The notes beneath the pieces were generated by a model that did not search any database, was not told the DNA's origin, and saw only the letters and a program-made list of their open reading frames with translations. The position numbers were made by a program, and so were the translations under genes. DNA of 64,000 bases, taken from the NCBI RefSeq assembly GCF_024138715.1, contig NZ_CP092074.1, positions 868,001 to 932,000 on the forward strand. The letters run 5' to 3'. Positions 45,073-62,978 of this stretch are shown piece after piece. How positions within the stretch are numbered: position 1 is the stretch's first letter; every line of letters starts with the position of its first letter. Origin of the DNA: Emticicia sp. 21SJ11W-3. GTDB taxonomy: Bacteria > Bacteroidota > Bacteroidia > Cytophagales > Spirosomataceae.

Positions 45073-45213
45073 GATTTATCTTCTGCTTGCATTTGTTTGG
45101 CAGAAACTCCCATCCAAAACTTCTTGCGCTGTAGTTTATTTCACTGTACTACATTATGTGTTGTTAATCAAAAAAACGGACAATTTTTATTTGTCAAGAA
45201 CTTTTTTATTATC

Positions 45214-45513
45214 ATGACCCCAGAAGAAAAGGCCAAGAAAAGTCGCGAGTATCAAAGAGAATACCACAAAAAGTATCGCGAGAAACATCGTGAATTGCTT
45301 AATCAAAGATCAAGGGAATATGCAATTGAGCATCGCGAAGAATTAAGAGAAAAATCCAAAGAGTATCGCCAATTAAATAAAGAAAAACTGGCTGCTTATG
45401 AAGCTGCCCGTTGGCCAAAAAGAAAAGAACAGCGCAGATTGAAAAGAGAAATGCTGAAACAGCAAAAAGCAGAAGCAGCAACTCAACAAGCGGGTGGTGA
45501 ATCAACTAACTAG
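45214..45513 (+). CDS. Hypothetical highly charged protein, 99 aa
   Basis: A 99-residue protein starting MTPEEKAKKSREYQREY, composed almost wholly of Lys, Arg, Glu and Tyr with a repeated pattern of the form Y-x-x-x-x-R-E. It is probably a single long helix or coiled coil and may contact nucleic acid. Similar charged repeats occur at the N-termini of some phage and homing-endonuclease proteins, but no catalytic domain follows here. It lies 141 nt after the tRNA and ends in a strong terminator. The function is unknown. Confidence 0.65.
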   Translation: MTPEEKAKKSREYQREYHKKYREKHRELLNQRSREYAIEHREELREKSKEYRQLNKEKLAAYEAARWPKRKEQRRLKREMLKQQKAEAATQQAGGESTN

Positions 45514-45572
45514 ACCGGAATCCAGCCTTTGAATGTGATAACCGTATCTTACAGCTTATACTCTTAAAGTAT

Positions 45573-45613
45573 AAGGGTGGCAGGTCTATGGATATTCCCT
45601 GTCACCCTTTTTT
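45573..45613 (+). terminator. Strong Rho-independent terminator
   Basis: AAGGGTGGCAGG (45573-45584) pairs over 12 bp with CCTGTCACCCTT (45598-45609) with one G-U pair, followed by a T run. Confidence 0.9.
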
Positions 45614-46059
45614 CTTGCCTATTTCCATTACTTCTTTTTTCTGCTTTTGCATCTGTTGTCTCTTACCTGTGTAAACCGGAACCAATAAATGGCCGGCCAT
45701 CTTTATTTTACTTACCCGTTTAGCTTCTTTATTTCCAGCAATATTCCTTAGAGCATCATCACTGTTGAGGCAGCAAACCGGGATTAAACCCATGCAGTGG
45801 CCGGGCCTGGTTTCCAATTATTGAGCTTGTGCAAACGCTGGTTCAATTACTGGTTTCATAACATGCTGATAGCGAACATTTAAGGCAAGTGATGAGATAA
45901 ATTCTGTTATTCTGAAAAAATAAAAATTTTGCGCTGAAAATTAATTCCAGAATCATAACTTTGAGAAACGGAGTATCTTAAAAAATTTCAAAGCGTATTT
46001 ATTCTGCACAAAGCTGCCAAATTTTAGGCATTGCTCCGCCATCTTAACCAGACCTTTAA
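45614..46059. other. 446-nt gap; -7 box for the DUF1080 operon, otherwise empty
   Basis: After the terminator no supported gene is visible up to 46060. TAACTTTG (45956-45963) is an exact TAnnTTTG match on the plus strand, with TTTG 24 nt upstream (45928-45931), slightly far for a -33 element. It would give a leader of about 90 nt for the DUF1080 gene. A minus-strand frame at 45602-45817 lacks a normal start and is not called. Confidence 0.45.
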
Positions 46060-46701
46060 ATGAAATCCTTTCTTGTTTTTCTGGCACTCGTCGGCTTTTG
46101 TCTGATGGGCTTCATACCTCAATCTACAAAAAAACCTGTCAGGCTTTTTGATGGCAAAACCTTTAGAGGTTGGGAGGGCGACACAATTTATACCTGGCGC
46201 ATTGAAAACGGGATGCTGATTGGAGGCGCTACAGATAAAGAAGTGCCGCATAACAACTTCCTCTGTACTACTCGCCCTTATAGGAATTTTATCATGAAAC
46301 TGAAGGTAAAACTAACCGGCAGTAAAGGTTTTATCAATTCGGGCATACAGTTCAGAAGCAAACGCCTCGTGAACCCACCCTACGAAATGGAAGGCTATCA
46401 GGCTGATTGGGGAGAAGGATTCTGGGGCGGTTTGTATGATGAATCAAGAAGGAATAAAACGTTGATAAGACCCGATTCTATACAGGTGCTGAAATGGATA
46501 AAGAAAAACGATTGGAATGATTATGAAATAAGAGCCGAAAAACGCCACATAAGATTATATGTCAATGGCAAGCAGACAGTAGATTATTATGAGCCTGATC
46601 CCGGTATTCCGCAGTCAGGTCTTATAGGTTTTCAGATTCATGGTGGTGGTGCCGCACAGGTGGCTTTTAAAGATGTAATACTTGAAGAACTACCAGACTA
46701 A
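46060..46701 (+). CDS. DUF1080 (3-keto-disaccharide hydrolase-like) protein
   Basis: A 213-residue exported protein with a signal peptide (MKSFLVFLALVGFCLMGF). The DUF1080 concanavalin-like fold shows in VRLFDGKTFRGWEG, the family's opening motif, then GFINSGIQFRSK, YEMEGYQADWGEGFWGGLYDE and GLIGFQIHGGGAAQVAFKDV near the end. Family members cleave 3-keto-glucosides or bind carbohydrate. It leads a three-gene operon with the cupredoxin/PVC-type protein and the FG-GAP protein, both also exported. Confidence 0.9.
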   Translation: MKSFLVFLALVGFCLMGFIPQSTKKPVRLFDGKTFRGWEGDTIYTWRIENGMLIGGATDKEVPHNNFLCTTRPYRNFIMKLKVKLTGSKGFINSGIQFRSKRLVNPPYEMEGYQADWGEGFWGGLYDESRRNKTLIRPDSIQVLKWIKKNDWNDYEIRAEKRHIRLYVNGKQTVDYYEPDPGIPQSGLIGFQIHGGGAAQVAFKDVILEELPD

Positions 46702-46813
46702 TTGAGAATTAGCGAATGCTGAATTAATGAATGTATTTTTTTAACCTACCCAATAACGATTCAACATAAAAAACTCAACCTAATTTTAATAACTATATTC
46801 AACCTTGTTAACT

Positions 46814-49720
46814 ATGAAAAAATCCCATCTGCTCTTTTTACCCTTGCTGGTATTTATGCTGAGAGGACCCGGCGCTAATGCCCGAGAATTGCCCACAAAA
46901 GCCAGAATTGTTCAGGACACCGTAAAAGTCGATTTTGATTATACCCTTGAAGCCAGTATGCTGGGCTATTTTGCCAAAAACGGCACCAGAAATCCGACAT
47001 TGAAAGCCACTAAAGGTAAAACTGTACGCATTACTATAGTGAATACCGAGCTGATGACCCATGACATAGCACTTGAAAAAGCTGGCGTGAAGAGTAAAAC
47101 TGTATCTGAAAAAGGTATGAAAGCCAGCATCATTTTTAAGGCTGAAAAAAGCGACACCTATTATTGCACAGTACCAGGGCACCGTGCAGCAGGTATGGTG
47201 GGCAAATTGGAAGTGGTAGATGGACCCATTACTGAAGCTGTTGCCGTAGGTAAGTTGCCTATGAAAGACGGCCAACCGCTGAACCTGGATTTTGAGACAG
47301 GCACATTAAAAGACTGGACAGCCACCGGAAATGCATTTGCCAATGCAGTTTTTAGTCAGGAGCCATCGCCGGTGCATGAAAAAGACATGGTGATTGGCTT
47401 TGAAGGCAAACACTTTTTAAGCAGTGGCGGAACCAGAAATTATCAGTTGACCGGAACACTTACTTCGGTACCTTTTAAAGTTACGCAGCCTTATGCAGCT
47501 TTCAGAGTATCTGGAGGGGCCTTGCAGGATACACGTGTAGAAATTGTATTGGCCGACACTAAAAAAGTGATTTTTCATTCAACAGGGCAGGGCAGAGCGA
47601 CGCTGCAACCGGTTGTTGTTGATTTAAGACCGTATCTGAACAAAAACATTTTCATCAGAATTGTTGACAATGAAACCGGCATATCGCAGATACCCTACAT
47701 CTCTAACGATATCTGGGCGCACATAAATTTCGATAATTTTTTGTTTTATCCCAGCCGCCCCACTTTCGCTAATGAGCTGAAACAGAAAGATATTATTATC
47801 CTGCCTCCACTAGACCCCGTTCTTAACGCCGGTCTTTCAGGAACCGAAGCTGCCAAAGCAATGACAGCCCCCAAAGGGTTTAAGGTAACCCTTGCAGCAG
47901 CCGAGCCAGACATTATACGTCCGATTTGTTTTACAATAGACTGGAAAGGCAGGCTTTGGGTAGTAGAGGGTCATACTTATCCGGTTCCGGCTCCGGAAGG
48001 GCAGGGTAGAGATCGTATCCTGATTTTTGAAGATACCAATGGCGACGGCACGCTAGACAAAAGAAAGATATTTATGGAGGGCCTTAACCTGGTAAGTGGT
48101 ATTGAACTGGGCATGGGAGGGGTCTGGTTAGGTGCTGCTCCTTATCTGTTGTATGTGCCTTTAGATGCTGAAAACGATAAGCCCGCAGGCCCGCCACAAA
48201 TATTATTGGATGGCTGGGGAACACAAGACACACATGAAGTACTGAATAGTTTCAGATGGGGGCCGGACGGCTGGCTATATGGCACGCATGGAGTATTTAC
48301 TCACTCAAAAGTTGGAAAGCCTGGTACGCCTGACGACCAGAGGGTGAAACTCAATGCAGGTGTTTGGCGGTTTCATCCCACAACGCAGAAATTCGAAGTA
48401 TTTGCCGAGGGCTCAAGCAACCCTTGGGGGCTTGACTTCAACGACTACGGGCATCCATTTATAACAGCCTGTGTTATTCCGCACATGTATCATATCATTC
48501 AGGGGGCAAGGTACTTCCGCCAGGCGGGTAAGCATTTTAACCCTTATATTTATGATGACATCACAACCATTGCTGACCATCGCCACTGGCTGGGCGACAG
48601 GGGGCCGCATGCAGGTAATTTCAGGTCTGCTGCTGCAGGTGGGGGCCATGCACATGCTGGTGCCATGTTGTATCTGGGTAACAGCTGGCCAGCCGAATAC
48701 AGAAACAAGATATTTATGAATAATATCAACGGAGCCAGGCTGAATGTTGACCAGCTAACCCGCTCCGGTTCGGGATATGTGGCGTCACACAACAAGGACT
48801 TCCTGGTTATGAACGATAGTTGGTCGCAGTGGCTTAATTTTAAGTATGATGCAAGCGGGTCTGTTTTTGCTATTGACTGGTATGATAAAAACCAGTGTCA
48901 TAGTTCAAATCCTGATGTGCACGATAAAACAATGGGCCGGATTTTTAAGATTACCCATGAAAACGACAAATGGGTACAGGTAGATTTATCTAAGGCAACA
49001 GATTTGGAGCTGGTGAGCTATCAGTTGAACCCGAATGAGTGGTATGTAAGGCAAGCCAGAGCTATTTTGCAGCAGCGCGGGCCAAATCCTAAGGTTCATG
49101 AGGCATTGAAGGAAATTCTGGTCAGAAATCCTGATGTAACCCGTAAACTAAGAGCGCTTTGGGCATTACATGTAACCAAAGGCCTTTCAGAAAAAGATTT
49201 AGTTGCTTTATTGTCAAACCCGAATGAATATATCAGGAGCTGGGCAATTCAGTTACTGGCTGAAGACAACCATATTTCGCCGGAAACCCTGAAGCAATTG
49301 GTGCAAATGGCAAAAACCGATAACTCTGCTTTGGTAAGGTTGTATCTGGCCTCTGCCATGCAGAGAATTGAACCAGCCCAAAGATGGGAAGTGGTAGACG
49401 CACTGGCTCAAAAAGTTGTCGATAAAGCAGACCATAATCTGCCGTTGATGGTTTGGTACGCAGCCGAGCCATTAGCGGCAGTTGATGCCAGAAGATTTAT
49501 TCAGATGGCAGAAAGAAGCAGATTGCCCAGGTTTCTGAACTATGCCATTCAACGCACTGGTGCCTTGAATACCGCCGAATCAAAAGCACTTCTGAAAGAA
49601 CTGGATAGTAAACTGGCCAGAGTACAAACAAAAGCCAATCAGGAAAACCATCAGTTAATCAATAAAGTGCTAAACCCGGCACAGGCGCATCAGCATGAAA
49701 ATGAAGAGGTGTCTCATTAA
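46814..49720 (+). CDS. Cupredoxin - PVC-type dehydrogenase-like - HEAT protein
   Basis: A 968-residue exported protein. After the signal peptide comes an azurin/plastocyanin-like domain (about 35-135) with all four type-1 copper ligands visible: His83, Cys118, His123, Met128. A jellyroll-like segment (about 155-310) follows. Then comes a propeller of the membrane-bound dehydrogenase type (about 345-720, ICFTIDWKGRLWVVEGHTYP, SFRWGPDGWLYGTHG). HEAT-like helices fill 730-930. Many PVC-type relatives end in a haem c CxxCH domain; none is present here. I use the ATG at 46814; a TTG three codons earlier is less likely. Copper-based electron transfer from sugar oxidation is inferred. Confidence 0.82.
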   Translation: MKKSHLLFLPLLVFMLRGPGANARELPTKARIVQDTVKVDFDYTLEASMLGYFAKNGTRNPTLKATKGKTVRITIVNTELMTHDIALEKAGVKSKTVSEKGMKASIIFKAEKSDTYYCTVPGHRAAGMVGKLEVVDGPITEAVAVGKLPMKDGQPLNLDFETGTLKDWTATGNAFANAVFSQEPSPVHEKDMVIGFEGKHFLSSGGTRNYQLTGTLTSVPFKVTQPYAAFRVSGGALQDTRVEIVLADTKKVIFHSTGQGRATLQPVVVDLRPYLNKNIFIRIVDNETGISQIPYISNDIWAHINFDNFLFYPSRPTFANELKQKDIIILPPLDPVLNAGLSGTEAAKAMTAPKGFKVTLAAAEPDIIRPICFTIDWKGRLWVVEGHTYPVPAPEGQGRDRILIFEDTNGDGTLDKRKIFMEGLNLVSGIELGMGGVWLGAAPYLLYVPLDAENDKPAGPPQILLDGWGTQDTHEVLNSFRWGPDGWLYGTHGVFTHSKVGKPGTPDDQRVKLNAGVWRFHPTTQKFEVFAEGSSNPWGLDFNDYGHPFITACVIPHMYHIIQGARYFRQAGKHFNPYIYDDITTIADHRHWLGDRGPHAGNFRSAAAGGGHAHAGAMLYLGNSWPAEYRNKIFMNNINGARLNVDQLTRSGSGYVASHNKDFLVMNDSWSQWLNFKYDASGSVFAIDWYDKNQCHSSNPDVHDKTMGRIFKITHENDKWVQVDLSKATDLELVSYQLNPNEWYVRQARAILQQRGPNPKVHEALKEILVRNPDVTRKLRALWALHVTKGLSEKDLVALLSNPNEYIRSWAIQLLAEDNHISPETLKQLVQMAKTDNSALVRLYLASAMQRIEPAQRWEVVDALAQKVVDKADHNLPLMVWYAAEPLAAVDARRFIQMAERSRLPRFLNYAIQRTGALNTAESKALLKELDSKLARVQTKANQENHQLINKVLNPAQAHQHENEEVSH

Positions 49721-49747
49721 TTTTACCAATTATAAAACAGTAAGAAT

Positions 49748-50932
49748 ATGCAAATAAAACAAAATATAAAGCATTGGGTATATTGGCTGGCAGGTGTGGT
49801 TTTTATAGGAAATGCCTCAGCTCAAAGCTTTACCTCAACTGATTTCAAGAAAACCAAAATCACGGCAGACTTCATTTCAGAGGGTGTGGCAGTAGCCGAT
49901 TTAAATAAAGACGGCAAACTGGATATTGTAGCCGGATATTACTGGTTTGAAGCGCCAGACTGGAAACGCCATGAAATGGCTCCATCTCGTGCTTTTGACC
50001 CTCGAAAAGAATATAGTGAATCTTTTCTTAATCTGGGTATGGATGTAAATCTGGATGGCTGGGATGATGTAGTGATTATTGATTTTCCGGGGAAAGCCGG
50101 TTTTTGGTTCGAAAACCCCAAAAACAGACCTGGCCAATGGGAAAAGCATATCATTGCCGACTCTATGGGTATTGCAAACGAATCGCCCGGATTTATTGAT
50201 ATTGATAACGACGGCAGACTGGATATTCTTTGCGGAGACAAAACCAAAAAACAGATTGTATGGTTACAAGCCCCAACCAGAAAAGGTGAAACCGCCTGGA
50301 AGCGCCACGCCATCAGTAAAGAAAATGTTCCGGGTACTGAAATATTCTCGCATGGTATTGGTTTTGGCGATATCAATAATGACGGTCTCAAAGATGTGGT
50401 AATACGTGAAGGCTGGTTTGAAGGAACAAAAGACAACAAGGCTGGTAACTGGAAGTTTCATCCGGCTAATCTGGGCGAACCTTGCTCGCACATGCAGGTA
50501 TTAGATGTAAACGGCGATGGCCGGAACGATGTAGTGAGCGCCTCTGCCCATGCACTGGGTATATGGTTTCATGAGCAGGTAGAAAAAGACGGCAGGATTG
50601 ATTTTGTTACACACCTTATGAGTACCACAACTGCGCAAACGCATTCATCAATTATGGCTGACTTGAATGGTGATGGTAAGAATGATTACATTACAGGCAA
50701 GAGATTTCTGGCGCACCACGGCCGTGACCCCGGCGATGCCGACGCTCCGTTTTTGCTCTGGTTTGAGTTTACCCCCGGTAAATCGCCATACTGGAAAGAA
50801 CATGTAATTGATAATGATTCTGGTGCAGGGCTGAATATAGTAGCCCGCGACATGAACAATGATAAGAAGATTGACCTGGTGGTTGCAAATAAAAACGGAG
50901 TATTTTTGTTCGAAAACAAAATGAAGAAGTAA
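49748..50932 (+). CDS. FG-GAP/VCBS repeat exported protein
   Basis: A 394-residue protein with a signal peptide (WVYWLAGVVFIGNASAQ) and repeated calcium-binding-like blades of an integrin-type propeller: VADLNKDGKLDIVAG, NLDGWDDVVIIDF, DIDNDGRLDILCGD, DINNDGLKDVVIREG, DVNGDGRNDVVSASA and MNNDKKIDLVVANK. It is probably a secreted carbohydrate- or partner-binding scaffold. It starts 27 nt after the cupredoxin/PVC-type gene and ends the operon before a terminator. Confidence 0.88.
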   Translation: MQIKQNIKHWVYWLAGVVFIGNASAQSFTSTDFKKTKITADFISEGVAVADLNKDGKLDIVAGYYWFEAPDWKRHEMAPSRAFDPRKEYSESFLNLGMDVNLDGWDDVVIIDFPGKAGFWFENPKNRPGQWEKHIIADSMGIANESPGFIDIDNDGRLDILCGDKTKKQIVWLQAPTRKGETAWKRHAISKENVPGTEIFSHGIGFGDINNDGLKDVVIREGWFEGTKDNKAGNWKFHPANLGEPCSHMQVLDVNGDGRNDVVSASAHALGIWFHEQVEKDGRIDFVTHLMSTTTAQTHSSIMADLNGDGKNDYITGKRFLAHHGRDPGDADAPFLLWFEFTPGKSPYWKEHVIDNDSGAGLNIVARDMNNDKKIDLVVANKNGVFLFENKMKK

Positions 50933-50939
50933 GATAGTC

Positions 50940-50975
50940 AAGCGAGAAGGGTCTTATACCTTTCTCGCTTTTCTT
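50940..50975 (+). terminator. Rho-independent terminator of the DUF1080 operon
   Basis: AAGCGAGAAGGG (50940-50951) pairs with CCTTTCTCGCTT (50959-50970) with one G-U pair, followed by a T-rich tract. The stem can also end the convergent B2 transcript from the minus strand. Confidence 0.85.
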
Positions 50976-50991
50976 ATGAAGGCAGTTTAAA

Positions 50992-51423
50992 TCAGGCAAA
51001 TGTGCTATGTACTACATAATCTTCAACTACACAAAAGCCGGTTACAAATTGGCCGTTTACCGTTGTCCAGGCATGGCCTTCTATGGTGCCTGCTTCATTC
51101 TTCTTAAAACCCACATAAATTTTATAGGGTATGCTATATAGCCGGCAAAGTACTTTTGCCTGATAAGCCTGATGCCTGCAGACGTTGTTCCAGAAGCTAT
51201 ATTTGGCTACAACTTTAATAACTATGCTGATGTCTCTCACCAGTTGCATATCAACGTTATTGTCTACATCAACAGGCTTGTTTCTTTCTCCGAATCTGGC
51301 GTTTGAATGAAAAAAACGGAATAGAAAAAAGCTGTATAGAGCCAGAGGAACAGTAAATGCCAACAGCAGTTTACGCCTCAGGCTCCAACGGAAAAACGCT
51401 CTTATTTTTTTTAGGAAACGCAT
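50992..51423 (-). CDS. Lasso-type B2 leader peptidase (transglutaminase-like)
   Basis: A 143-residue protein of the Transglut_core3 / lasso peptide B2 family. A basic N-terminus with a hydrophobic segment (about 18-40) is followed by the papain-like core. The catalytic Cys is in NNVCRHQAYQAKVLC, and His is in EGHAWTTVNGQFVTG, the signature GHAW. B2 proteins remove the leader from RiPP precursors after B1 binds it. It overlaps the B1 gene by 13 nt and is the last gene of the minus-strand arm. The hydrophobic N-terminal segment suggests membrane association. Confidence 0.9.
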   Translation of the reverse strand: MRFLKKIRAFFRWSLRRKLLLAFTVPLALYSFFLFRFFHSNARFGERNKPVDVDNNVDMQLVRDISIVIKVVAKYSFWNNVCRHQAYQAKVLCRLYSIPYKIYVGFKKNEAGTIEGHAWTTVNGQFVTGFCVVEDYVVHSTFA

Positions 51424-51677
51424 TTAACAATATAAGTTTTTTCTTCCAGTTCTGTCAGAGCAAGATTAACATCAGCAGCACACTCCGCTTCAGAAATATT
51501 GTATTCGGTATGTAAATCCTGCACAATAGTTTCAACGTTGTTTCCCTGTTCAATACCTTGAAGTATTTTGTAAAGCGTTTCGTTCAGAGATACATATTCA
51601 TTCGTTTGCATATCAAATAATATGCCTTCATCACCTAGTTCGGTCAGTAAAATTCTGTTAGTGTTTATAGTGTACAT
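51411..51677 (-). CDS. Lasso-type B1 / PqqD-like RRE protein
   Basis: An 88-residue PqqD-family protein, the RiPP recognition element that binds leader peptides. The fold shows as three strands (LLTELGDEGILFDMQTNEYVSL) then helices (TLYKILQGIEQG, TIVQDLHTEY, ADVNLALTELEEK). The ATG at 51677 starts MYTINTNRILL; the longer TTG frame adds 11 unrelated residues. It lies 19 nt after the sulfotransferase gene and overlaps B2 by 13 nt. Its expected ligand is the W-x-x-P segment of the precursor at 55455-55607. Confidence 0.9.
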   Translation of the reverse strand: MYTINTNRILLTELGDEGILFDMQTNEYVSLNETLYKILQGIEQGNNVETIVQDLHTEYNISEAECAADVNLALTELEEKTYIVKCVS

Positions 51678-51696
51678 AGTTGTAGTGTCAAAGATT

Positions 51697-52575
51697 CTAC
51701 CAATACCCAAAGTGTTGCATCATAGGTTGGTTTACCTCTTTTATTTTTTTGATTTGTTTTTCGGTTAATTCTGATTTCCACCGGCCAGCCACTCCTTTAA
51801 AAAAGAAACTATTGGCAGAGACCATTTTTTCACTGAAACCTCTTTTTTGTTCCTGTTCTTTTAGTTTTTCAAACCGGGTTAATTCTATCGCCTGATTTAT
51901 CTGTGTATCAGATACTTCCAAACCAATGGCATTTAAGGCGCCTTTAAATGTTTCAAAGGGCATGGCTTTTAGATCTTCATATCTGATAAAGTGAACAGGG
52001 AATGTTGGGTATTTAAGCCAGCTTTCTACGTGGTCTGACCAGGTCCCTAACATTTGAAAAAACTGTTGAGAACTGTTATTAGTCTTTTTACCAAATGTAC
52101 TTGTTGGGTTTATTAGAAAATTGTCAATGGCGTTATCTACTGTAATGTCCTGATGATTAGCTAATGAAAGGGCTATGTCAAGCGGATTCCGAACCAGGTA
52201 AATTGCCATTTTTGTAGGTTCAGTAGGAACCAACGGCAGTGAGTCAAATTCAGAAAATGTGTAAGCGTCATGTATTTTAATGTACATCAGTTTTCTGCTT
52301 ATTTCAGAAAGATACCTGAATGAAAATCTTCTTAAGGTTTCCGCTTCTTGTGGCCCGATATAGTCGGCATCAATATCTAGTGCGTCCTCAAAAACTAATT
52401 TGCCAGAAAATATACCGTTAGTTTGCAGGTTATTTATATCCAGGTCTTTGTTACTGATAAGCACAGACAGAAAAGACCTGAACCACGTATTACCAGACTT
52501 TGGGTAAGAGGCCAGCCAAACAATTTTCGGATTCGAATCCGATTCATGAAAAGAGCGTAATCCGGTTAATTCCAT
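51697..52575 (-). CDS. Sulfotransferase, probable RiPP tailoring enzyme
   Basis: A 292-residue PAPS-dependent sulfotransferase. The 5'-phosphosulfate-binding loop is WLASYPKSGNTWFRSFL, and the 3'-phosphate-binding part is YLVRNPLDIALSLANH. A C-terminal KGVAGRWKSEL matches the GxxGxWK motif of the family. The catalytic base region is KIHDAY. It starts as TGATG overlapping the kinase gene's stop, so it is coupled within the RiPP operon. It would sulfate a hydroxyl, possibly a Ser or Thr of the peptide, which is rich in both. This last point is inference. Confidence 0.88.
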   Translation of the reverse strand: MELTGLRSFHESDSNPKIVWLASYPKSGNTWFRSFLSVLISNKDLDINNLQTNGIFSGKLVFEDALDIDADYIGPQEAETLRRFSFRYLSEISRKLMYIKIHDAYTFSEFDSLPLVPTEPTKMAIYLVRNPLDIALSLANHQDITVDNAIDNFLINPTSTFGKKTNNSSQQFFQMLGTWSDHVESWLKYPTFPVHFIRYEDLKAMPFETFKGALNAIGLEVSDTQINQAIELTRFEKLKEQEQKRGFSEKMVSANSFFFKGVAGRWKSELTEKQIKKIKEVNQPMMQHFGYW

Positions 52576-53519
52576 CACTTCAAAATTAGAGCTTTTTGCT
52601 TTAAGGGTTCCAGAATCTCAGCTTCTAATGTGTCTGCAAACGCAGTGAACGTGGATTTGTTTTTAGGCCTGTTGGCCTGCCAACAAGGGAAAGTTTTTAC
52701 AATGCCGGTTAAATGCCTGAACTTGACCAATTCTTTTTGCATGCCATTAACCCAGTTTTTTCTGTATACATTTCCAGACAGGGCCTCAATTGCCTCTACA
52801 GAATTCAGTTTTTTTACCTTAATGTTTTCGCCTTCGGCATTCATATTTACAATACCGGCAACCTCAACTTTTTCGGTAACAAACCGGTCATGAAACGAAA
52901 ACGCAAACTTATTGATGCTAACCTCGCTTCTTATCAATTGCTTGTCTGATTCATCCAGGATTGTCTGGTTTTTAAGCGTGCTATCCCATAAGCGCATTAC
53001 CGGATATGAAGCATAGGCATAACATTTGCCGTTTTCTACATTTAATATGGCTGTGTCGTCAGTAAAAGGAGCATATCCTTTTTGCTGAAGCATCAATGAG
53101 GTGGTAGATTTACCCACGCGCGACGGAGCGGCGAACAGCACAATTCTTGAGTCATCAATAAACACACCAGACACATGAAAAGGAACAAGGTTGCGTTGGT
53201 ACAAGGCTGCAGCCATACAATTAGAGTAAAAATAAAGCAGGATGTCCTGTTGTTTTTCGCTGTTGGGTTCTATAATTATTTCTTCTCCATCATGTACGTA
53301 ATAACGGGCCAGGTCTGGCATTGTGAAAAGATATTCCGTTTCGTTGAAGGTAGAAAAAGGCTTTTTAGCTGTTGGCTCATTTTTCAGTTTAAGAGGTACT
53401 TTGCCAATTTTAACAAATAATGGTTTGTGCGGGTTGCTTGTATCAGTAAGCGGTATAAACCCTGGTAAATCAATTTCAGAAACAATGGGTAGTCCGTAAG
53501 CTATATAATTAATAGTCAT
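52575..53519 (-). CDS. HPr-kinase-like serine kinase of the RiPP locus
   Basis: A 314-residue protein related to HPr kinase/phosphorylase, as found in paeninodin-type lasso clusters. The P-loop is APSRVGKSTT (131-140), preceded by VPFHVSGVFID, and an acidic site lies in YAPFTDDTAIL. In known clusters this kinase phosphorylates the C-terminal serine of the precursor. The precursor identified here also ends in Ser, which supports the match. It is the first gene of the minus-strand arm, and its stop overlaps the sulfotransferase start. Confidence 0.88.
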   Translation of the reverse strand: MTINYIAYGLPIVSEIDLPGFIPLTDTSNPHKPLFVKIGKVPLKLKNEPTAKKPFSTFNETEYLFTMPDLARYYVHDGEEIIIEPNSEKQQDILLYFYSNCMAAALYQRNLVPFHVSGVFIDDSRIVLFAAPSRVGKSTTSLMLQQKGYAPFTDDTAILNVENGKCYAYASYPVMRLWDSTLKNQTILDESDKQLIRSEVSINKFAFSFHDRFVTEKVEVAGIVNMNAEGENIKVKKLNSVEAIEALSGNVYRKNWVNGMQKELVKFRHLTGIVKTFPCWQANRPKNKSTFTAFADTLEAEILEPLKQKALILK

Positions 53520-53528
53520 TGAGCGTGG

Positions 53529-53559
53529 TTGCGTTTTATTTACAAATTACGTAATTTTA
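53529..53559 (+). promoter_or_regulatory. Promoter of the macrocyclase gene
   Basis: TTG (53529-53531), a 20-nt spacer and TAATTTTA (53552-53559) fit the Bacteroidota -33/-7 pattern, with only the last -7 base off consensus. It lies 50 nt before the ATG at 53609, within the divergent interval shared with the kinase gene. Confidence 0.5.
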
Positions 53560-53608
53560 GATTAAAATAAGAATTCTTTCTATAAACTTATTGCTGCGAC
53601 TAACCGAT

Positions 53609-55486
53609 ATGTCACAATTTTTTGGCTGTTTAAGTCTCAATGAAACAATGAATGTTTCTGAGATTGGTTTGAATATGTATCAAGCCATGAATTTTTTCAG
53701 AGGTGACGCCGAGGGTGTTTACCAGTCTGATGAAATTTATATATGTAACAAGTTTCTTTTCAATACTCCCGAATCTTTTAACGCATCAGCCATAGTTCAG
53801 AACGACCGCTATGTATTGGCCGCCAGTTGCAGAATTGATAACCGGGAAAAACTGGCTTCTGAATTAAAAATTAAGGACCCCCTAAAGGCTTCTGACCACG
53901 AATTTATACTGGCCGCTTACACCTTCTACCAGAATGATTGTGTAAAGCACCTTATTGGCGATTTTGCTTTTGTGGTTTGGGATAAACAACAAAAAGCGCT
54001 TTTTATGGCCAGAGACCACCTGGGTGTGAAACCCTTGTTTTATACCTGCCAGCAGAATCTAATTCTTTTTTCGAGTGATCTGAACGCTTTTCTTCACCTG
54101 CCATTTATTGATTTAAGCTATAAGAAATCTTACGTGGCCGGGTTGCTTCATGGGTCATATATCCTTAAATATTTAAATGTAAAGCACACGTGCTATCATG
54201 ATATTTACCGCTTAGAACCAAGCCATTATCTGTTTTATTTTAATGAGAGAGTTCAGATTACAAAGTACTGGGAGCTAAAGCCGTGTTTCCCTGAAAAACC
54301 GGTAGATGCAGCACTAGTTTACCGCGAATTTTATCAATTGTTTTTTGAGGCTGTCAGATGCCGGTTACGTGGGATAGAATCTTTTGGCGTAGGGCTGGAG
54401 TTAAGCGGAGGGCTTGACTCTTCAACAATTGCCTGTATGGCCAATGAGGTACTTTCTGCTAAAAAAACTCTTTTTGAAAACCTTTATTCGTTCTCTCTGG
54501 TACAATCAGATGAGGGGCGTGTCCTTGCTGAGAAAGAGATAGTGGAGGAAGAACACATTCAGAATCAACTTTTAGATTCATTCGGGTTCAATAAAAAGAA
54601 TATTTTTAAGTTAAACCGGCATCCGTTTACTAATTATCAGGATGAATTACAGGAGACCATTCGCGTACACGGGGGGCTGAACAAGCAAAACACTACCTGG
54701 CAGAATGCTATTTATGAAGCGATGCAAAGCGCCGGTTGCCGGGTAAAACTTAGTGGTTTTTCGGGAGATGAATTAGTAACCGATTATGGAACCCGATGGA
54801 TGTATGATATCTGGTATAGTTGCAGGCCTGGCAGAGTGATGAAAGAACTTCTGAAATTTGATATAGCTGTTTACAAATCGTTGTTCAGGTATTTACAGGG
54901 TAGATTGTTTGGTTTTAAGATGAATAAAGCGTCTATAGCCAAAGAAATTGATTCTGATTTTCTCAAGGCTGAGCGCCTGAAAGACCTACCTGCCAAAGAA
55001 TATGGCATTGATGTAAAGTCATATAAACACTTCATGATTTCAAGAATCATGAGGCCGTTTACTTCATTGAGGTTTGAGTCTGAGAATCTGCATGCTTTGA
55101 GAGCTAATAGCGAGTGCCGTTACCCGATGGCCGATATCAGGTTACTGGAGTATATGATACAATTGCCTGCTGAAATGTTCAGACCCGGAGATGTAAAACG
55201 CAATTTCATCAGGAAATCTTTACAAAGTATTCTGCCAGCGTACGTAATCTGTAGAGACGACAAAACCGCTGCTGTTATTCCTTACAGAAAGTTAAAAAAC
55301 AAGGTTTTTATTAGTCAACTTCTGAAAGATGGCCTGCCTGCAGACATGGAAAGCAATATGGTGGATACAAAGAAAATACTAGAAAGACTTAAGACACCGG
55401 AAAACCTAAAAAGGGAGACTGATGTGATCTCCCTTTTAACTGCTGCTTACCTGGTTAAGACGGAACACCAGTACCACCTTCGCTAG
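53609..55486 (+). CDS. Asparagine-synthetase-like macrolactam synthetase (lasso C type)
   Basis: A 625-residue protein with an N-terminal glutamine-amidotransferase-like domain (1-200) and an ATP-pyrophosphatase synthetase domain with LSGGLDSS (265-272). The residue after Met1 is Ser, not the Cys needed for glutaminase activity (MSQFFGCLSL), as in lasso macrocyclases that need only adenylation. It should activate a precursor Asp/Glu side chain and join it to the core N-terminus. The ATG at 53609 is preferred over a TTG 18 nt upstream. Its last 32 nt overlap, antisense, the precursor gene. Confidence 0.88.
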   Translation: MSQFFGCLSLNETMNVSEIGLNMYQAMNFFRGDAEGVYQSDEIYICNKFLFNTPESFNASAIVQNDRYVLAASCRIDNREKLASELKIKDPLKASDHEFILAAYTFYQNDCVKHLIGDFAFVVWDKQQKALFMARDHLGVKPLFYTCQQNLILFSSDLNAFLHLPFIDLSYKKSYVAGLLHGSYILKYLNVKHTCYHDIYRLEPSHYLFYFNERVQITKYWELKPCFPEKPVDAALVYREFYQLFFEAVRCRLRGIESFGVGLELSGGLDSSTIACMANEVLSAKKTLFENLYSFSLVQSDEGRVLAEKEIVEEEHIQNQLLDSFGFNKKNIFKLNRHPFTNYQDELQETIRVHGGLNKQNTTWQNAIYEAMQSAGCRVKLSGFSGDELVTDYGTRWMYDIWYSCRPGRVMKELLKFDIAVYKSLFRYLQGRLFGFKMNKASIAKEIDSDFLKAERLKDLPAKEYGIDVKSYKHFMISRIMRPFTSLRFESENLHALRANSECRYPMADIRLLEYMIQLPAEMFRPGDVKRNFIRKSLQSILPAYVICRDDKTAAVIPYRKLKNKVFISQLLKDGLPADMESNMVDTKKILERLKTPENLKRETDVISLLTAAYLVKTEHQYHLR

Positions 55487-55607
55487 TACCTGTGCCAGAA
55501 GCGTTTATGGCCGTATTGAGGGCTCTCATGGCAGGCTTTACCCAGGTTTTTTTTGCCTGCACTTCTTTTTCCGGTTTTTCCGTTTGGATTTCCAATTGAT
55601 TTTCCAT
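55455..55607 (-). CDS. Candidate lasso-like RiPP precursor peptide, 50 aa
   Basis: I found this frame by reading the minus strand: ATG at 55607 to TAA at 55455. The leader (1-34) begins MENQLEIQTEKPEKEV and carries KKTWVKPAMRAL (19-30), an aromatic-x-x-P-x-x-x-x-L pattern like the B1-binding motif of lasso leaders. The rest is small and polar: residues 35-50 read NASGTGTSEGGTGVPS. Glu43 is the only acidic residue there, so ring closure would involve residue 35, 36 or 37 (rings of 9, 8 or 7). The C-terminal Ser50 suits the HPr-kinase-like enzyme. It starts 33 nt after a collar gene and overlaps the macrocyclase gene end by 32 nt. Confidence 0.75.
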   Translation of the reverse strand: MENQLEIQTEKPEKEVQAKKTWVKPAMRALNTAINASGTGTSEGGTGVPS

Positions 55608-55639
55608 GGTTTTCTGTATTTATAGATTTATTTTGATTT

Positions 55640-56167
55640 TCAGTCTGGTCTATCAGGATAAATCCCATCCCAGCAAATACCGTAAGTTATACATAAGAAA
55701 GGAGCCATATTATTATGCGGTTGGTAGCCACCCGGCGCTGCCCCAATCATTCTATCGTTCATTTTTATCAGGTAATCACCCGCGTTTTTTTTGGCGTAGA
55801 AGTTGCCTCCCGCGGTGCCAATGTAGTTGTTAGTAGGGTCTTTACTTTCTCTTGGGCCGGTTAGTGCATTATAAGGGTGATTGTGTGGCGGTAATTCATT
55901 CTGAGTCAGCGTCACCTGTTCTGCTCCACCAGTTTGCCCGGGTATTTTTATTGTTTTATCTAATTTTCCTACACCAATTATTGAGCGGCTCATTAAATTA
56001 GGCAGATTAAAGTAAGTCTTTCCATCTCCGCCATAAGTTGTACCGATTAAGGTGTAAAGGGGCATATTTTGGGAGTTTATTGCAAGTTTTCTACCGTCGC
56101 ATTCCAGATAACCTTCTGGTACGTAGCGACCTGGAAATGCTTTAATCATTCCTATGTATTCATCCAT
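55640..56167 (-). CDS. Phage tail collar (Mdp-like) protein A1
   Basis: A 175-residue protein with the tail collar domain typical of microcystin-dependent-protein-like (MdpB, COG4675) families: MDEYIGMIKAFPGR, CDGRKL, YTLIGTTYGGDG, LPNLMSRSIIG, LTQNELPPHNH and a closing ITYGICWDG. There is no signal peptide. It is a paralogue of the 57632-58162 gene (about two-thirds identical by eye). It is the last collar gene before the RiPP precursor, 32 nt upstream of it on the same strand, so both are likely on one transcript. The function outside phages is unclear. Confidence 0.88.
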   Translation of the reverse strand: MDEYIGMIKAFPGRYVPEGYLECDGRKLAINSQNMPLYTLIGTTYGGDGKTYFNLPNLMSRSIIGVGKLDKTIKIPGQTGGAEQVTLTQNELPPHNHPYNALTGPRESKDPTNNYIGTAGGNFYAKKNAGDYLIKMNDRMIGAAPGGYQPHNNMAPFLCITYGICWDGIYPDRPD

Positions 56168-56225
56168 TTTTTCAAATAGTTTAAAGTGATTCCGTAATTA
56201 TTACTTATATGAACCCTGTTTTATG

Positions 56226-56336
56226 TTAAGTAGCCAGGTAATTATCTGTTAGAAAAACCATTAAGCCGTTCTTAATCATATTTTGTTGAGAGCCTTCCAG
56301 AAAGTTGATAATTTCCGGATGATTTGATAATGGTTT
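56226..56336 (-). pseudogene. Relic reading frame in the B1-A1 spacer (37 codons)
   Basis: A stretch ending in TAA at 56226 reads without a stop and shares EIINFL, IKNGLM, FLT and YLAT blocks with the matching spacer copy at 58221-58331, with no indel between them. No start codon suits both copies. Most differences between the copies change the amino acid, so it looks like the tail end of a lost gene rather than a live one. Upstream in frame it runs into the B1 gene. Confidence 0.35.
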
Positions 56337-56349
56337 TAAAAAATAATGG

Positions 56350-56880
56350 TTATGGCATTGGAGGATATAATCCAGCAGTGCAAATAATGTAGTTAAGGGC
56401 TATAAAGGGTGGCATATTCTCGTGAGCTTGCCCACCAATAGGGCTTATTGCTCCTGCTGCCATAGCTACTAAATTATCAGCTGGCTTTGCCTCTACATAA
56501 AAATTACTGGCGGTATTACCCAGGTAATTATTTTGAGGGTCAGTAGATTCACGGCTGCCTGATAGCGCGCTATATGTATGCGTATGAGGTGGAATGTGAC
56601 TAAGGGTAAGCGTTACCTTTTCTTCACCTCCTTTTTGTCCACGTTCTCTTAACGTAAGGTAACTACTACCATTATTTCCTCGTCCCGAATCAATGATTAG
56701 TCGGCCTCTCAGGTCGGGCAGCATAAATGTATTTCTGCCATCACCACCGTACGTTGTTCCTAATAGGGCATAAAGAGCCTGATATTTCGCTATAGGCAGC
56801 GTTTGGCCTTCGCATTTTAAATAATATTGGGGGGTAAAGTCGCCTGCGAAGATTTTTATTGTTCCTATGTATTCATCCAT
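56350..56880 (-). CDS. Phage tail collar (Mdp-like) protein B1
   Basis: A 176-residue collar-domain protein: MDEYIGTIKIFAGDFTP, CEGQTLPI, ALLGTTYGGDG, FMLPDLRGRLII, LTLSHIPPHTHTYSA and ALNYIICTAGLYPP. It is paralogous to 58350-58871. It belongs to the middle position of a three-gene block (C-B-A in transcription order). Nothing else of a phage tail is present, so it is not a prophage remnant in the usual sense. Such triplets of collar proteins are common in Bacteroidota genomes. Confidence 0.88.
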   Translation of the reverse strand: MDEYIGTIKIFAGDFTPQYYLKCEGQTLPIAKYQALYALLGTTYGGDGRNTFMLPDLRGRLIIDSGRGNNGSSYLTLRERGQKGGEEKVTLTLSHIPPHTHTYSALSGSRESTDPQNNYLGNTASNFYVEAKPADNLVAMAAGAISPIGGQAHENMPPFIALNYIICTAGLYPPMP

Positions 56881-56937
56881 TTTATTTCAAGTGTTAAAGG
56901 TATTTAATAACAAAGTTGAAAGATGTTGTTCAATGGG

Positions 56938-57465
56938 CTATTCACGGAAAGGAAATACACCATTGACACAGATGAGGTAATTAATTGCCATGTAGGGAGG
57001 CATATTTTCATGAGGAAGGTTCCCTCCAAAGGCGGTTGAAATGATATCACTTCCCATTTTTACTTCCGTATCGGAACCTTGTTTAATGCAATATCTGTCA
57101 TTGGGGGTCTTGGTTAAAAAACGATCAGAAGGGTTACTGGAATCAGCATCAACAGTAAGTGCATAAGAAATATGCGTATGCTGCGGATATGTGTTTTGAG
57201 TTATTGTTACATTTTCAACGCCTCCTGTCTGACCAAGAGTCCTGTTTGTTAGATCCGGACCTTGTCCGGTGCCTATAACAACCCGACATTGTAAGTTAGG
57301 CAAGGCAAAATTATACCTGCCATCGCCACCATATCTAGTGCCAATAATTGCGTACAGCGCTTGATTGTCAGAAATTTGCAACAGTCTTCCGTCGCAAGGT
57401 AGCCAGCCCCTTGGTGCATAAGTGACACCTGCAAAAGGTTTAATAACACCTATATATTCGTCCAT
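56938..57465 (-). CDS. Phage tail collar (Mdp-like) protein C1
   Basis: A 175-residue collar protein: MDEYIGVIKPFAGVTYAPRG, CDGRLLQI, AIIGTRYGGDG, ALPNLQCRVVIGTG, ITQNTYPQHTH and YLICVNGVFPF. It pairs with 58927-59454 as C2. In the usual GR-x-x-IG position it has QCRVVIG. A 57-nt spacer separates it from B1, and 166 nt of mostly featureless sequence separates it from the A2 gene upstream. Confidence 0.88.
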   Translation of the reverse strand: MDEYIGVIKPFAGVTYAPRGWLPCDGRLLQISDNQALYAIIGTRYGGDGRYNFALPNLQCRVVIGTGQGPDLTNRTLGQTGGVENVTITQNTYPQHTHISYALTVDADSSNPSDRFLTKTPNDRYCIKQGSDTEVKMGSDIISTAFGGNLPHENMPPYMAINYLICVNGVFPFRE

Positions 57466-57631
57466 ATATTAAGTATCTAAGATGGTTGTTTATTTGTATT
57501 TTGCTTAAATGCAATTGCTTTAGTGAAAGGCATTCAGTAGTCCATTAATAGGCTGTTGGTAAATGAGCGCTTATAAATCGCATACAATCTCTGTTTTTAC
57601 GAGTTTCCGATTGAACAGACTTTAACTATTA

Positions 57632-58162
57632 TCAATCTGGTCTTGGAGGATATTCCCCGTAAGCACAAATGCCATAAGTTATACCTAAGAAAGGAGCCAT
57701 ATTATTATGCGGTTGGCTGCCACCCGGTGCTGCTTCAAGCATTAGATCGTTCATTTTTATCAGGGTGTCAGCAGGGTCTTTTTTGGCATAGAAGTTTCCG
57801 CCCGCGGTGCCAATGTAGTTGTTTTTGGGGTCTTTACTTTCTTTAGGGCCAGTTAGCGCATTATACGGGTGATTATGCGGGGGTAATTGCATCTGAGTAA
57901 GCGTTACCATTTCTGCTCCACCATTTTGCCCGGGTCTATGTGAAGTTAAACCTGCCGCGCTCCCGGCACCAATAATAGAGCGCCCCCTTAAATCAGGGAC
58001 ATTAAAAATTTGTTTACTAACATCGCCTCCATAAGTAGTGCCAATTAAAGAATAGAGTGCTAGAAACTGTGATATGGGAAGTGACTGCCCGTTACATTCA
58101 ATAAAACCTTCTGGTACGAAGCGGCCAGGAAAAGCTACAATCATTCCTATGTATTCATCCAT
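57632..58162 (-). CDS. Phage tail collar (Mdp-like) protein A2
   Basis: A 176-residue collar protein: MDEYIGMIVAFPGRFVPEG, CNGQSLPI, SLIGTTYGGDV, VPDLRGRSIIGAG, LTQMQLPPHNHPYNA and ITYGICAYGEYPPRPD. It differs from A1 mainly in residues 20-95, while the C-terminal half is nearly the same. That pattern suggests the head half evolves faster or has been partly homogenised by gene conversion in the tail half. Confidence 0.88.
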   Translation of the reverse strand: MDEYIGMIVAFPGRFVPEGFIECNGQSLPISQFLALYSLIGTTYGGDVSKQIFNVPDLRGRSIIGAGSAAGLTSHRPGQNGGAEMVTLTQMQLPPHNHPYNALTGPKESKDPKNNYIGTAGGNFYAKKDPADTLIKMNDLMLEAAPGGSQPHNNMAPFLGITYGICAYGEYPPRPD

Positions 58163-58220
58163 GTTTTTAAATAGTTTAAAGTGATTCCGTAATTATTACT
58201 AACATGCACCCTGTTTTATG

Positions 58221-58331
58221 TTAAGTAGCCAGGTATTTTTCTGTTAGAAATATCATCAAGCCGTTCTTAATCAAATGATATTCAGAGCCTTGCAGAAAGT
58301 TGATAATTTCCGAACGATTTAATAATGGTTT
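58221..58331 (-). pseudogene. Relic reading frame in the B2-A2 spacer (37 codons)
   Basis: Matches the 56226-56336 relic codon for codon (EIINFL, IKNGLM, FLT, YLAT), ending in TAA at 58221. The frame is the same as the B2 gene after its stop codon, so it could once have been a C-terminal extension of B2 or a separate gene. No start codon is evident. Confidence 0.35.
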
Positions 58332-58349
58332 AAAACAGTAATGGTTACG

Positions 58350-58871
58350 TTATGGTCTTGGAGGGTACAATCCAAAGGTGCATATAATATAATTAAGTAC
58401 TATGAAGGGTGGCATATTCTCGTGTGGTTGCCCTCCAATGGTGCCTACTGCCCCTGGTGCCATAGCTACTAATTTATCATCTGGGCCTTTTTGTGCATAA
58501 AAAGTACTGGCAGTATTACCCAGGTAATTATTTTGAGGGTTAGGAGATTCGCGATTGCCTGATAGCGCGCTGTACGTATGCGTATGTGGTGGGATGTTAC
58601 TAAGGGTAAGGGTTACCTTTTCCTCACCTCCTTTTTCACCAAGTCGTCTGTAATTAGGGCTACCGGGCATTTGTCCCGTTTGAACGATTAGGCGGCCTCT
58701 CAGGTCAGGCAGCATAAATGTATTTCTGCCATCGCCGCCATAGGTAGTTCCTAATAAAGCAAAAAGAGCCTGATATGTCATTATCGGCAGGGTCTGTCCT
58801 TCGCATTTCAAATAGTTCCTGGGCGCATAGTCGCCTGCAAAAATTTTTATAGTTCCAACGTACTCATCCAT
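58350..58871 (-). CDS. Phage tail collar (Mdp-like) protein B2
   Basis: A 173-residue collar protein: MDEYVGTIKIFAGDYAPRN, CEGQTLPI, ALLGTTYGGDG, FMLPDLRGRLIVQTG, LTLSNIPPHTHTYSA and VLNYIICTFGLYPPRP. It is three residues shorter than B1 owing to changes in the loop after the GR motif. It is separated by 55 nt from C2 upstream and by 187 nt from A2 downstream, mirroring the first block. Confidence 0.88.
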   Translation of the reverse strand: MDEYVGTIKIFAGDYAPRNYLKCEGQTLPIMTYQALFALLGTTYGGDGRNTFMLPDLRGRLIVQTGQMPGSPNYRRLGEKGGEEKVTLTLSNIPPHTHTYSALSGNRESPNPQNNYLGNTASTFYAQKGPDDKLVAMAPGAVGTIGGQPHENMPPFIVLNYIICTFGLYPPRP

Positions 58872-58926
58872 TTTATTTAATTTGTTAAGGGTGCTTAATT
58901 ATTTATTGATTCTGCTGTACAATTAG

Positions 58927-59454
58927 TTACGGACGCTCAGGATAGATACCCTGCACGCAAATGATATAATTGATAGCCATGAATGGAGGCATATTGTTAT
59001 GAGGAAGGTTCCCACCAGGAGCTGTAGAAATGATATCATTTCCCATTTTTACTTCCATATCGCTGCCTTCTTGGATGCAATATCTGTCAACGAGGGTTTT
59101 GGTTAAAAAAAGATCGGAAGGGTTACTGGAATCAGCATCAACATTAAGTGCAAAAGAAGTATGTGTATGCGCTGGGAATGTACTTTCAGTGATTGCCACA
59201 TTTTCAGCGCCTCCTATCTGTCCAAGAGTTCTGTTTGTTAGCCCTTGTCCTTGTCCGGGTCCTACAACAGCTCTGCCTTGTAAGTTAGGCAAAGCAAATT
59301 TGGTCTTGCCATCGCCACCGTATGTATAGCCAATAATTGCAAATAGTGCTTCATTGCCAGAAATGGGCAACTGTGTTCCGTCGCAAAGATGCCAGCCAAC
59401 AGGTACAAAAGTGACACCTGCAAAAGGTTTGATAACACCTAAGTATTCATCCAT
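58927..59454 (-). CDS. Phage tail collar (Mdp-like) protein C2
   Basis: A 175-residue collar protein: MDEYLGVIKPFAGVTFVPVG, CDGTQLPI, AIIGYTYGGDG, ALPNLQGRAVVGPGQG, ITESTFPAHTH and YIICVQGIYPERP. It is the first intact gene of the six-gene run and the paralogue of C1. Its upstream region carries a TTCAACAAAAGTTTA tract that recurs near 59971-59985, in front of degraded sequence, suggesting another lost copy. A promoter could not be fixed. Confidence 0.88.
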   Translation of the reverse strand: MDEYLGVIKPFAGVTFVPVGWHLCDGTQLPISGNEALFAIIGYTYGGDGKTKFALPNLQGRAVVGPGQGQGLTNRTLGQIGGAENVAITESTFPAHTHTSFALNVDADSSNPSDLFLTKTLVDRYCIQEGSDMEVKMGNDIISTAPGGNLPHNNMPPFMAINYIICVQGIYPERP

Positions 59455-59589
59455 ATTTCAACAAAAGTTTAAAGATTAAAAAAGTAAAAACACCAATATT
59501 TAGAAATATCCATATCCACTATTGAAAAGACCCGGCGATAAATTCTTCGAAAAAGCATCCACCATTGGCCTTCAGCATTTAAAAAATAC

Positions 59590-59668
59590 TTATTCTTCCA
59601 AAAAGAAATATGCACTTGGTGGATATGAGCCAGTAAATTTTTTTTATTAATCCTATGTATTCCTCCAT
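59590..59668 (-). pseudogene. Internally deleted collar gene fragment
   Basis: From an ATG at 59668 the minus strand reads MEEYIGLIKK, close to the MDEYIGMIK start of the collar genes. After one frame shift it reads TGSYPPSAYFFLEE and a stop at 59590, reminiscent of the collar C-terminus (GEYPPRPD). Nearly all of the roughly 530-nt gene between has gone. This is the remnant of a further copy in the array. Confidence 0.55.
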
Positions 59669-59758
59669 TTTTCTACTCAGGTTAACTTACAAAAGAGTTA
59701 ATTATCGGTATTTATTGAAATTGGTGGAGTTTTCAGTAGTAAAACTAATCCTCGGTAA

Positions 59759-59956
59759 GTCTTCCAGATACTTGCGGAAAATCATTCGGTGATTGCTTAT
59801 AGAAATTTCGATACCAAAAAGTCTATAGCTACGCGTTTAATCAGTTCAAATGAAAATTGCGTGTTCTGGTTGATTCCGGGTGCGCACATTCAATCACAGT
59901 TTCATGGAAACGAGTGCATAGATGAAGGCGTAATGGGAAGAACCAAATATGATTGA
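59759..59956 (+). pseudogene. Orphan coding-like frame of unknown family
   Basis: A plus-strand frame of 65 codons after a TAA at 59756 ends in TGA at 59956. It can start only with GTG at 59789 (giving 55 residues beginning VIAYRNFDTKKSIATRL). It reads like protein (NCVFWLIPGAHIQSQFHG) but no family is recognised. It is probably the fragment of a gene cut by rearrangement at the edge of the collar array. Confidence 0.25.
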
Positions 59957-60297
59957 GAAATTATAATTAGTTCAACAAAAGTTTATAGGTTAAAATAAAA
60001 ACAGTAATACTATTGTAAATCAAATTTTATCCCGGTTCTAAATAATAATTAGCCTCGGGTTTTAAGTTTTTAATTTGTAAGAGTAAAAGAAAAGATAACT
60101 CTGAAGATATTATCAATTATAGTCTCTCAGCTAAGTGTACTTCAAAGGAAATAAAATGTGATTATTTTGCAAAATATTTGAACTTTATTTTGCGGTTTTT
60201 TTATTTAACGGCACCAAATTTAAATAAATGCGCTTTTAAATGGTTGATTTACAGGTAATTCAAAGGCTAGTGGGGCCATCGCTAAACTGTAAAATAG

Positions 60298-60332
60298 CAG
60301 AAGGGGATACGGTTTTGCCGCATCCCCTTCTG
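60298..60332 (-). terminator. Hairpin after the TonB-dependent receptor gene
   Basis: CAGAAGGGGATACGG (60298-60312) pairs with CCGCATCCCCTTCTG (60318-60332) over a TTTTG loop, with one mismatch. It is very stable but has only a weak T run on the minus strand (CTATTTTAC). It lies 38 nt beyond the receptor stop. Confidence 0.7.
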
Positions 60333-60369
60333 TGCCAGAATACTGGCATCAATTATTTAAATTTTTATA

Positions 60370-62928: not shown

Positions 62929-62978
62929 AGTAGAATTGTTTTGTGTTTGCATAAAATGCTTTTAAGAATAAGGATTGG

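Follow-up and report, generated by a model that had tools for sequence, protein, structure and literature searches.

A likely paeninodin-like lasso peptide locus beside tail-collar genes in Emticicia sp. 21SJ11W-3, a genome with one intact B2 gene found

Paeninodin-type lasso peptide clusters are known from Firmicutes and Proteobacteria, and a review describes a kinase that modifies the linear precursor at its C-terminal Ser and a putative sulfotransferase gene in some Firmicutes lasso clusters (PMC8498205). Pseudomycoidin is a lasso peptide tailored by a kinase, at the C-terminal Ser (PMC8498205), and by a nucleotidyltransferase, and in a table of PMC10040529 the gene clusters for lasso B2, nucleotidyltransferase and sulfotransferase carry neighbouring numbers. 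A third related group is the LPP family of phosphorylated ribosomally synthesized and post-translationally modified peptides (RiPPs), whose clusters comprise an HprK-like kinase, a discrete RiPP recognition element (RRE), a nucleoside triphosphate (NTP) transferase and an SpI-like peptidase (PMC13381572), only about one third of the peptidase genes being linked to genes for a lasso cyclase and B2. Here, we analysed 64,000 nucleotides (nt) of the Bacteroidota bacterium Emticicia sp. 21SJ11W-3 (contig NZ_CP092074.1, positions 868,001 to 932,000; hereafter the window), in which the locus at 50992-55607 has in common with the paeninodin-type clusters the genes for B1, B2, a putative C and a kinase, a precursor ending in Ser, and the sulfotransferase seen in some Firmicutes. 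It differs from them in its bacteroidotal host, in the overlap between the kinase and sulfotransferase genes, in that no D transporter was seen alongside, in the position of the precursor at the end of a run of collar genes, and in a genome that holds at least six C-like genes and one intact B2 gene. With pseudomycoidin it shares the predicted kinase tailoring of a C-terminal Ser, whereas profile search found no nucleotidyltransferase in window 44000-64000, and with the LPP family it shares the HprK-like kinase and the discrete RRE. We consider it likely that this locus makes a kinase-bearing, paeninodin-like lasso peptide, and its B2 is possibly shared in trans with other sites. Since both kinases and sulfotransferases in lasso clusters have already been published, the idea of combining them is not in itself new.

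Enzymes and precursor of the locus

The locus comprises the following genes, with the basis of each assignment in brackets (PAPS, 3'-phosphoadenosine 5'-phosphosulfate):

50992..51423, minus strand: B2 leader peptidase, Transglut_core3 (NCBIfam NF033537, Pfam)
51411..51677, minus strand: B1, PqqD-type recognition protein (Pfam PqqD, profile against solved structures)
51697..52578, minus strand: PAPS-type sulfotransferase, GTG start (Pfam Sulfotransfer_1)
52575..53519, minus strand: HPr-kinase-like protein (profile against PDB, P-loop, AlphaFold 2 model)
53609..55486, plus strand: C, Asn-synthetase-like macrolactam synthetase (NCBIfam, Pfam)
55455..55607, minus strand: precursor peptide, 50 codons (leave-out profile, family alignment)

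The list of open reading frames (ORFs), Pfam and NCBIfam place the named genes where the original prediction, made from the sequence alone, had put them (50992-55607). On the minus strand the order is HPr-kinase-like gene, sulfotransferase, B1 and B2, with C divergent. The predicted overlapping operon stands as one run in which two of the three joints overlap, by 4 nt between the kinase and sulfotransferase genes and by 13 nt between B1 and B2; the third joint, between the sulfotransferase and B1, overlaps only with the TTG start with which B1 was listed (51411-51710), and alignment with relatives makes the ATG at 51677 the more likely start. For C, too, the ATG at 53609 is more likely than the listed TTG at 53591.

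The family assignments support the view that B1, B2 and C form a lasso maturation set. B2 scores 54.1 bits with the NCBIfam model lasso_biosyn_B2 (NF033537; cut-off 33) and 55.5 bits with Pfam Transglut_core3 (cut-off 26), and its Cys82 is shared by all 13 aligned rows, while at least 90% of them have His117 and Trp119. B1 reaches 49.6 bits with Pfam PqqD (cut-off 23.4), and its profile matches the solved lasso PqqD chaperone 9x90 (E 5.3e-25) and TbiB1 (5v1u, E 2.8e-19). C exceeds the Pfam cut-offs for GATase_7 and Asn_synthase, and the SGG-DSS residues, a conserved ATP-site motif, are invariant in six rows; its residue 2 is Ser, in agreement with the predicted lack of Cys2 (the same six-row alignment, in which the N-terminus is visible in five rows).

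The best PDB match of a 19-sequence profile of the HPr-kinase-like protein is HPr kinase (2qmh, E 1.8e-8). In Pfam, the sole match of this protein was to an unrelated family and fell short of the cut-off; in NCBIfam, HprK_rel_A matched weakly (23.5 bits, cut-off 200). The P-loop GKS is invariant and the DD pair nearly so in the 19 rows, and the AlphaFold 2 model has a mean confidence (pLDDT) of 91.8. The protein is probably a peptide Ser kinase; HPr-kinase homologues are known from paeninodin-type clusters (PMC8498205), with which the original prediction associates such enzymes. The sulfotransferase scores 102.7 bits with Sulfotransfer_1 (cut-off 22), has TEG12 as its best solved relative (E 2.4e-25), and carries the motifs SYPKSGNTW and RNPxD, which are unchanged throughout an alignment of 12 rows and presumably act with PAPS. 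One kinase for adenosine 5'-phosphosulfate (APS), a source of PAPS, is encoded in the genome. In the first survey of related loci, from which four duplicates (L026-L029) were dropped, a kinase gene directly precedes the sulfotransferase gene in 11 of 12 sulfotransferase matches, the exception being a weak match of 92 bits (L062). Sulfotransferase matches in three further genomes (G368, G415 and G419; best E 3.7e-51, 1.3e-44 and 8.6e-47) were set aside, with no lasso-profile match nearby. Judging from these homologies, the product is probably phosphorylated and perhaps sulfated.

The precursor frame contains 50 codons including KKTWVKPAMRAL, has the leader segment KKTWVKP, ends in Ser, and runs convergent to C with a 32-nt overlap with the C 3' end. 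Its core is most likely ASGTGTSEGGTGVPS, with an Ala1-Glu8 ring and a C-terminal Ser, the boundary being deduced from the family; the lasso form would have a calculated [M+H]+ of 1246.555, rising by 79.966 to 1326.521 with phosphate or by 79.957 to 1326.511 with sulfate. A 28-row profile built without the window row ranked this frame first in the six-frame translation of the window (E 5e-7, runner-up 0.12), and so did an 18-row profile built without any row from its own genome (E 3e-7, runner-up 0.16), which backs the earlier proposal that the W-x-x-P frame starting at 55607 is the precursor.

Relatives were collected by an alignment-based scan with C, of which the best 80 of 228 loci were retained; when the genome collection was scanned with the C protein by itself, no relative came up. 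Among these 80, the closest C proteins are in Emticicia and Flectobacillus records. The related loci hold the same genes and WxxP precursors, and relatives of NTP_transf_5 are present in sister loci such as L022. Small WxxP frames do stand beside homologous C, B1 and B2 genes, and they are denser there than in a control. A fixed pattern, in which W/YxxP is followed by G/A/S/C and this by an acid at ring position 7-9, matched 30 times in 57.3 kb of intergenic DNA from 19 lasso loci, the window included, against 8 times in 121.4 kb from 59 collar control loci; a stricter form that requires Gly1 and places the acid at position 8 matched 24 times against 0, and matches ending in Ser numbered 26 of 30 against 0 of 8. 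Overall, Ser is the last residue in 35 of the 40 candidates gathered, a count that includes one doubtful frame and non-independent rows from the same genome, and the candidate cores mostly have Gly or Ala at position 1 and an acid at position 8. Three later frames beyond the 40, two in L278 and one in G458 (L256), also end in Ser, and a G002 frame at L022:286, which looks decayed, is outside the 40. Absent from the family alignment, though counted among the 40, are both precursors of L034, which end in Thr, two frames of L033, four of L278, that of L279, the second precursor of G002 (L280) and a doubtful frame of L032; the count covers Bacteroidota and, outside them, L051.

Collar genes and other neighbours

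The original prediction is silent on six collar genes, on further lasso-type sites in the genome and on the single intact B2. The collar genes are:

55640..56167, minus strand: collar protein 1 (Pfam Collar, 73.9 bits)
56350..56880, minus strand: collar protein 2 (Pfam Collar, 92.3 bits)
56938..57465, minus strand: collar protein 3 (Pfam Collar, 82.1 bits)
57632..58162, minus strand: collar protein 4 (74% identical to collar 1; Collar match)
58350..58871, minus strand: collar protein 5 (resembles collar 2; Collar match, alignment)
58927..59454, minus strand: collar protein 6 (resembles collar 3; Collar match, alignment)

The precursor stands at the end of this run, its ATG 32 nt past the stop codon of collar protein 1. 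The six genes (55640-59454) form two triplets, of which genes 4-6 look like a tandem duplicate of genes 1-3, and they are the only Collar matches of the genome. That all six sit at the lasso locus argues against their being chance neighbours outside the pathway, as does a sample of 395 genomes of the phylum, in which both strong sulfotransferase matches outside the own genome (E 4.5e-108 and 1.8e-96) fall in lasso loci with a collar triplet. Three more lasso loci contain collar genes: L025 repeats the layout with collar, collar, precursor and convergent C; L196 has C, B1, six collars, formyltransferase, precursor, sulfotransferase and kinase; and L051, from a gammaproteobacterial metagenome-assembled genome, has kinase, sulfotransferase, acetyltransferase, collar, binding protein, B1, precursor and C. 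In total, collars occur in four further kinase-sulfotransferase lasso loci and beside a fifth cyclase. Nevertheless, chance proximity is only a little short of an even bet. Collars are present in 5 of 13 kinase-sulfotransferase lasso loci and absent from 8 (3 of 11 have them without the seed and without L196, a locus to which its collars had led); the collar-less L022 and L069 end at contig ends. Moreover, in a control of 60 collar loci from 59 genomes (40 from a family search and 20 from a phylum search, picked by score, 4.5-19.5 kb), clear lasso genes were found in one locus and not in the other 59; single matches of 17-18 bits to the B2, kinase or C profiles in L177, L192, L206 and L210 were taken as noise. 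Collar genes as general partners of lasso genes were rejected on this control, and so was the formyltransferase beside collars in L196, L242 and L243 as a specific partner, as it has matches in four lasso-free collar loci too. Collar genes of the same genus also lie near APS kinase and formyltransferase genes in L197 and L198, with no lasso-profile match.

The collar proteins weakly match phage short tail fibres. A literature search pairing 'lasso peptide' with 'tail collar' returned no paper and one pairing it with 'Emticicia' none either, and in one table of PMC10040529 the lasso and tail fiber entries stand apart.

A TonB-dependent receptor is encoded at 60370-62952, upstream of the collar run. 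No D transporter was found among the locus genes, this receptor and eight flanking ORFs scanned with Pfam, and neither an ABC transporter nor a complete prolyl-oligopeptidase-type protein in those eight ORFs (36980-63998, some ORFs of this range being unscanned), which bears out the earlier remark that no transporter or isopeptidase gene is adjacent. At 41798-44923, a protein with PD40 repeats matches DPPIV_N just above the cut-off (24.9 against 22) but shows no peptidase domain.

Dispersed lasso-type sites and the single intact B2

Besides the window, C-like genes lie at L017, L018, L019, L020 and L278, so that the genome has at least six. WxxP precursor-like frames number 18 at eight sites, and 12 of them, at seven sites, have the plain lasso form. 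By site, the frames are:

window: 1
L017: 4
L018: 1
L019: 2
L020: 1
L244: 2
L278: 6 (4, plus two added later)
L279: 1

Ser ends 15 of the first 16 frames as well as both added L278 frames. In six frames, five in L278 (11018-12338) and one in L279 (4901-5044), a KIEV/KIEL segment follows the WxxP motif. These have longer hydrophobic cores, and possibly represent a second precursor subfamily or another RiPP type; at least two have no acid after the segment, which makes their lasso status doubtful and counts against the lasso reading. L279 consists of a kinase and the precursor-like frame. At L244 (5488-10753), two precursors face sulfotransferase genes, one of them a mere piece, next to another sulfotransferase, a UGT-like glycosyltransferase and an APS kinase, and profile search found no C, B1, B2 or kinase there. 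A precursor beside a sulfotransferase recurs in the same-genus genome G002, where the one at L280 has only a sulfotransferase alongside and no C, B1 or B2. The adjacency at these two sites ties the sulfotransferase to the precursor. Between the two G002 precursors, whose contigs differ, 29 of 30 residues agree in the leader but 4 of 16 in the core, a picture that maturation in trans would be expected to give.

In the 5.18-Mb genome, PF13471 exceeds its cut-off twice, in the window B2 and in a stop-interrupted remnant in L018 (about 13670-13840), which has a B1 gene on one side and transposase-like ORFs on the other. Of the weak matches, the two longer ones belong to Transglut_core proteins (259 and 279 amino acids), and a third (L229) is a 53-residue frame containing a stop. 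The window B2 is therefore the only intact B2 found, in an assembly of one contig with 99.94% completeness. PqqD is above its cut-off at four places; at L021 (7276-7635) there is a PqqD-like gene with no further profile match in its 14-kb stretch. A single B2 is no general rule, as G145 has two B2 matches above the cut-off. A possible second lasso site of G458 lies on contig 2 (L256 1-1917), where a WxxP precursor frame accompanies the N-terminus of a C-like protein and the beginning of a kinase-like frame.

That a single intact B2 was found in a genome where C-like genes number at least six, and where seven sites have lasso-type precursors, suggests that the window may supply the leader protease in trans. 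It is a substantial though not a favoured possibility that the satellite sites are instead self-contained or decayed and the window B2 serves its own precursor only. The broken B2 remnant of L018 and the transposase-like ORFs (named by eye) in L018 and L278 would suit decay, and the satellites could be served by a non-B2 protease or be silent, which are points against sharing. On the other side stand the related leaders at seven sites of a nearly complete one-contig genome and the recurrence of a precursor with only a sulfotransferase in G002.

Proposed pathway and its alternatives

In the pathway we propose, B1 would bind the WxxP leader, the kinase would phosphorylate the C-terminal Ser of the linear precursor, and the sulfotransferase would add sulfate to a hydroxyl of the same peptide, Ser or Thr being the likelier site because the window core has no Tyr. 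B2 would then cut off the leader, and C would close the Ala1-Glu8 macrolactam around the tail; the window B2 may also process the precursors of other sites in trans.

Several results weigh against this pathway. The best NCBIfam model for C, the cyanobacterial lasso cyclase lass_lactam_cya (E 9e-88), gives 295.5 bits, below its cut-off of 525, and B1 did not reach the cut-offs of the NCBIfam lasso-PqqD submodels. All 50 matches listed by Foldseek for the kinase model are phosphoenolpyruvate (PEP) carboxykinases; PEP carboxykinases have their kinase core in common with HPr kinase. The window precursor, with its Ala1, is outside the 24 strict matches, and its pattern score of 2 is no better than that of five of the eight control matches, so that the precursor claim is carried by homology and not by the pattern. 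Five of the 40 candidates, one of the 40 being doubtful, do not end in Ser. Lastly, the tail GGTGVPS has no bulky residue able to lock a thread, and such a small-residue tail puts threading in doubt.

This last point, together with the tail GGGVSTGS in L019, would fit a branched-cyclic product in which C closes the ring and the tail slips out. We regard an unthreaded macrolactam as improbable, since Tyr, Phe or His occurs in the tails of other family members and the set of enzymes is the one used in lasso pathways. A non-lasso, LPP-like pathway that uses the same kinase, recognition protein and leader motif to make a linear phosphorylated peptide would agree with the composition of LPP clusters given above, and with the statement in PMC12710340 that W/Y/LxxP recognition is not confined to lasso peptides, but it is very improbable in view of a B2 above the lasso cut-off, a C with the conserved ATP-site motif and the Gly/Ala1 and acid-8 pattern of most candidate cores.

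The paeninodin-like lasso pathway may be part of something wider. Prochlorosins have related leaders, divergent cores and dispersed precursor genes, in lanthipeptide chemistry. A decentralised system of that kind, in which the window B2 would mature at least 12 dispersed precursors, several of which lie beside a kinase or sulfotransferase gene of their own, and the collar proteins would bind, display or deliver the product, is a speculative and rather unlikely extension, and would differ from prochlorosins in that the own genome has several C and B1 copies and one intact B2. The display or delivery role is a guess from the weak match to phage short tail fibres.

Lasso clusters are usually seen as self-contained, and a genome with one B2 and many sites would differ from this. 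If sharing is true, leader removal would be a common service open to many cores, from which sets of lasso peptides could naturally arise. Furthermore, the precursors that stand beside a sulfotransferase alone offer a clean test system for lasso sulfation, and the recurrent company of collar genes gives a handle on the role of lasso peptides or of the collar proteins.

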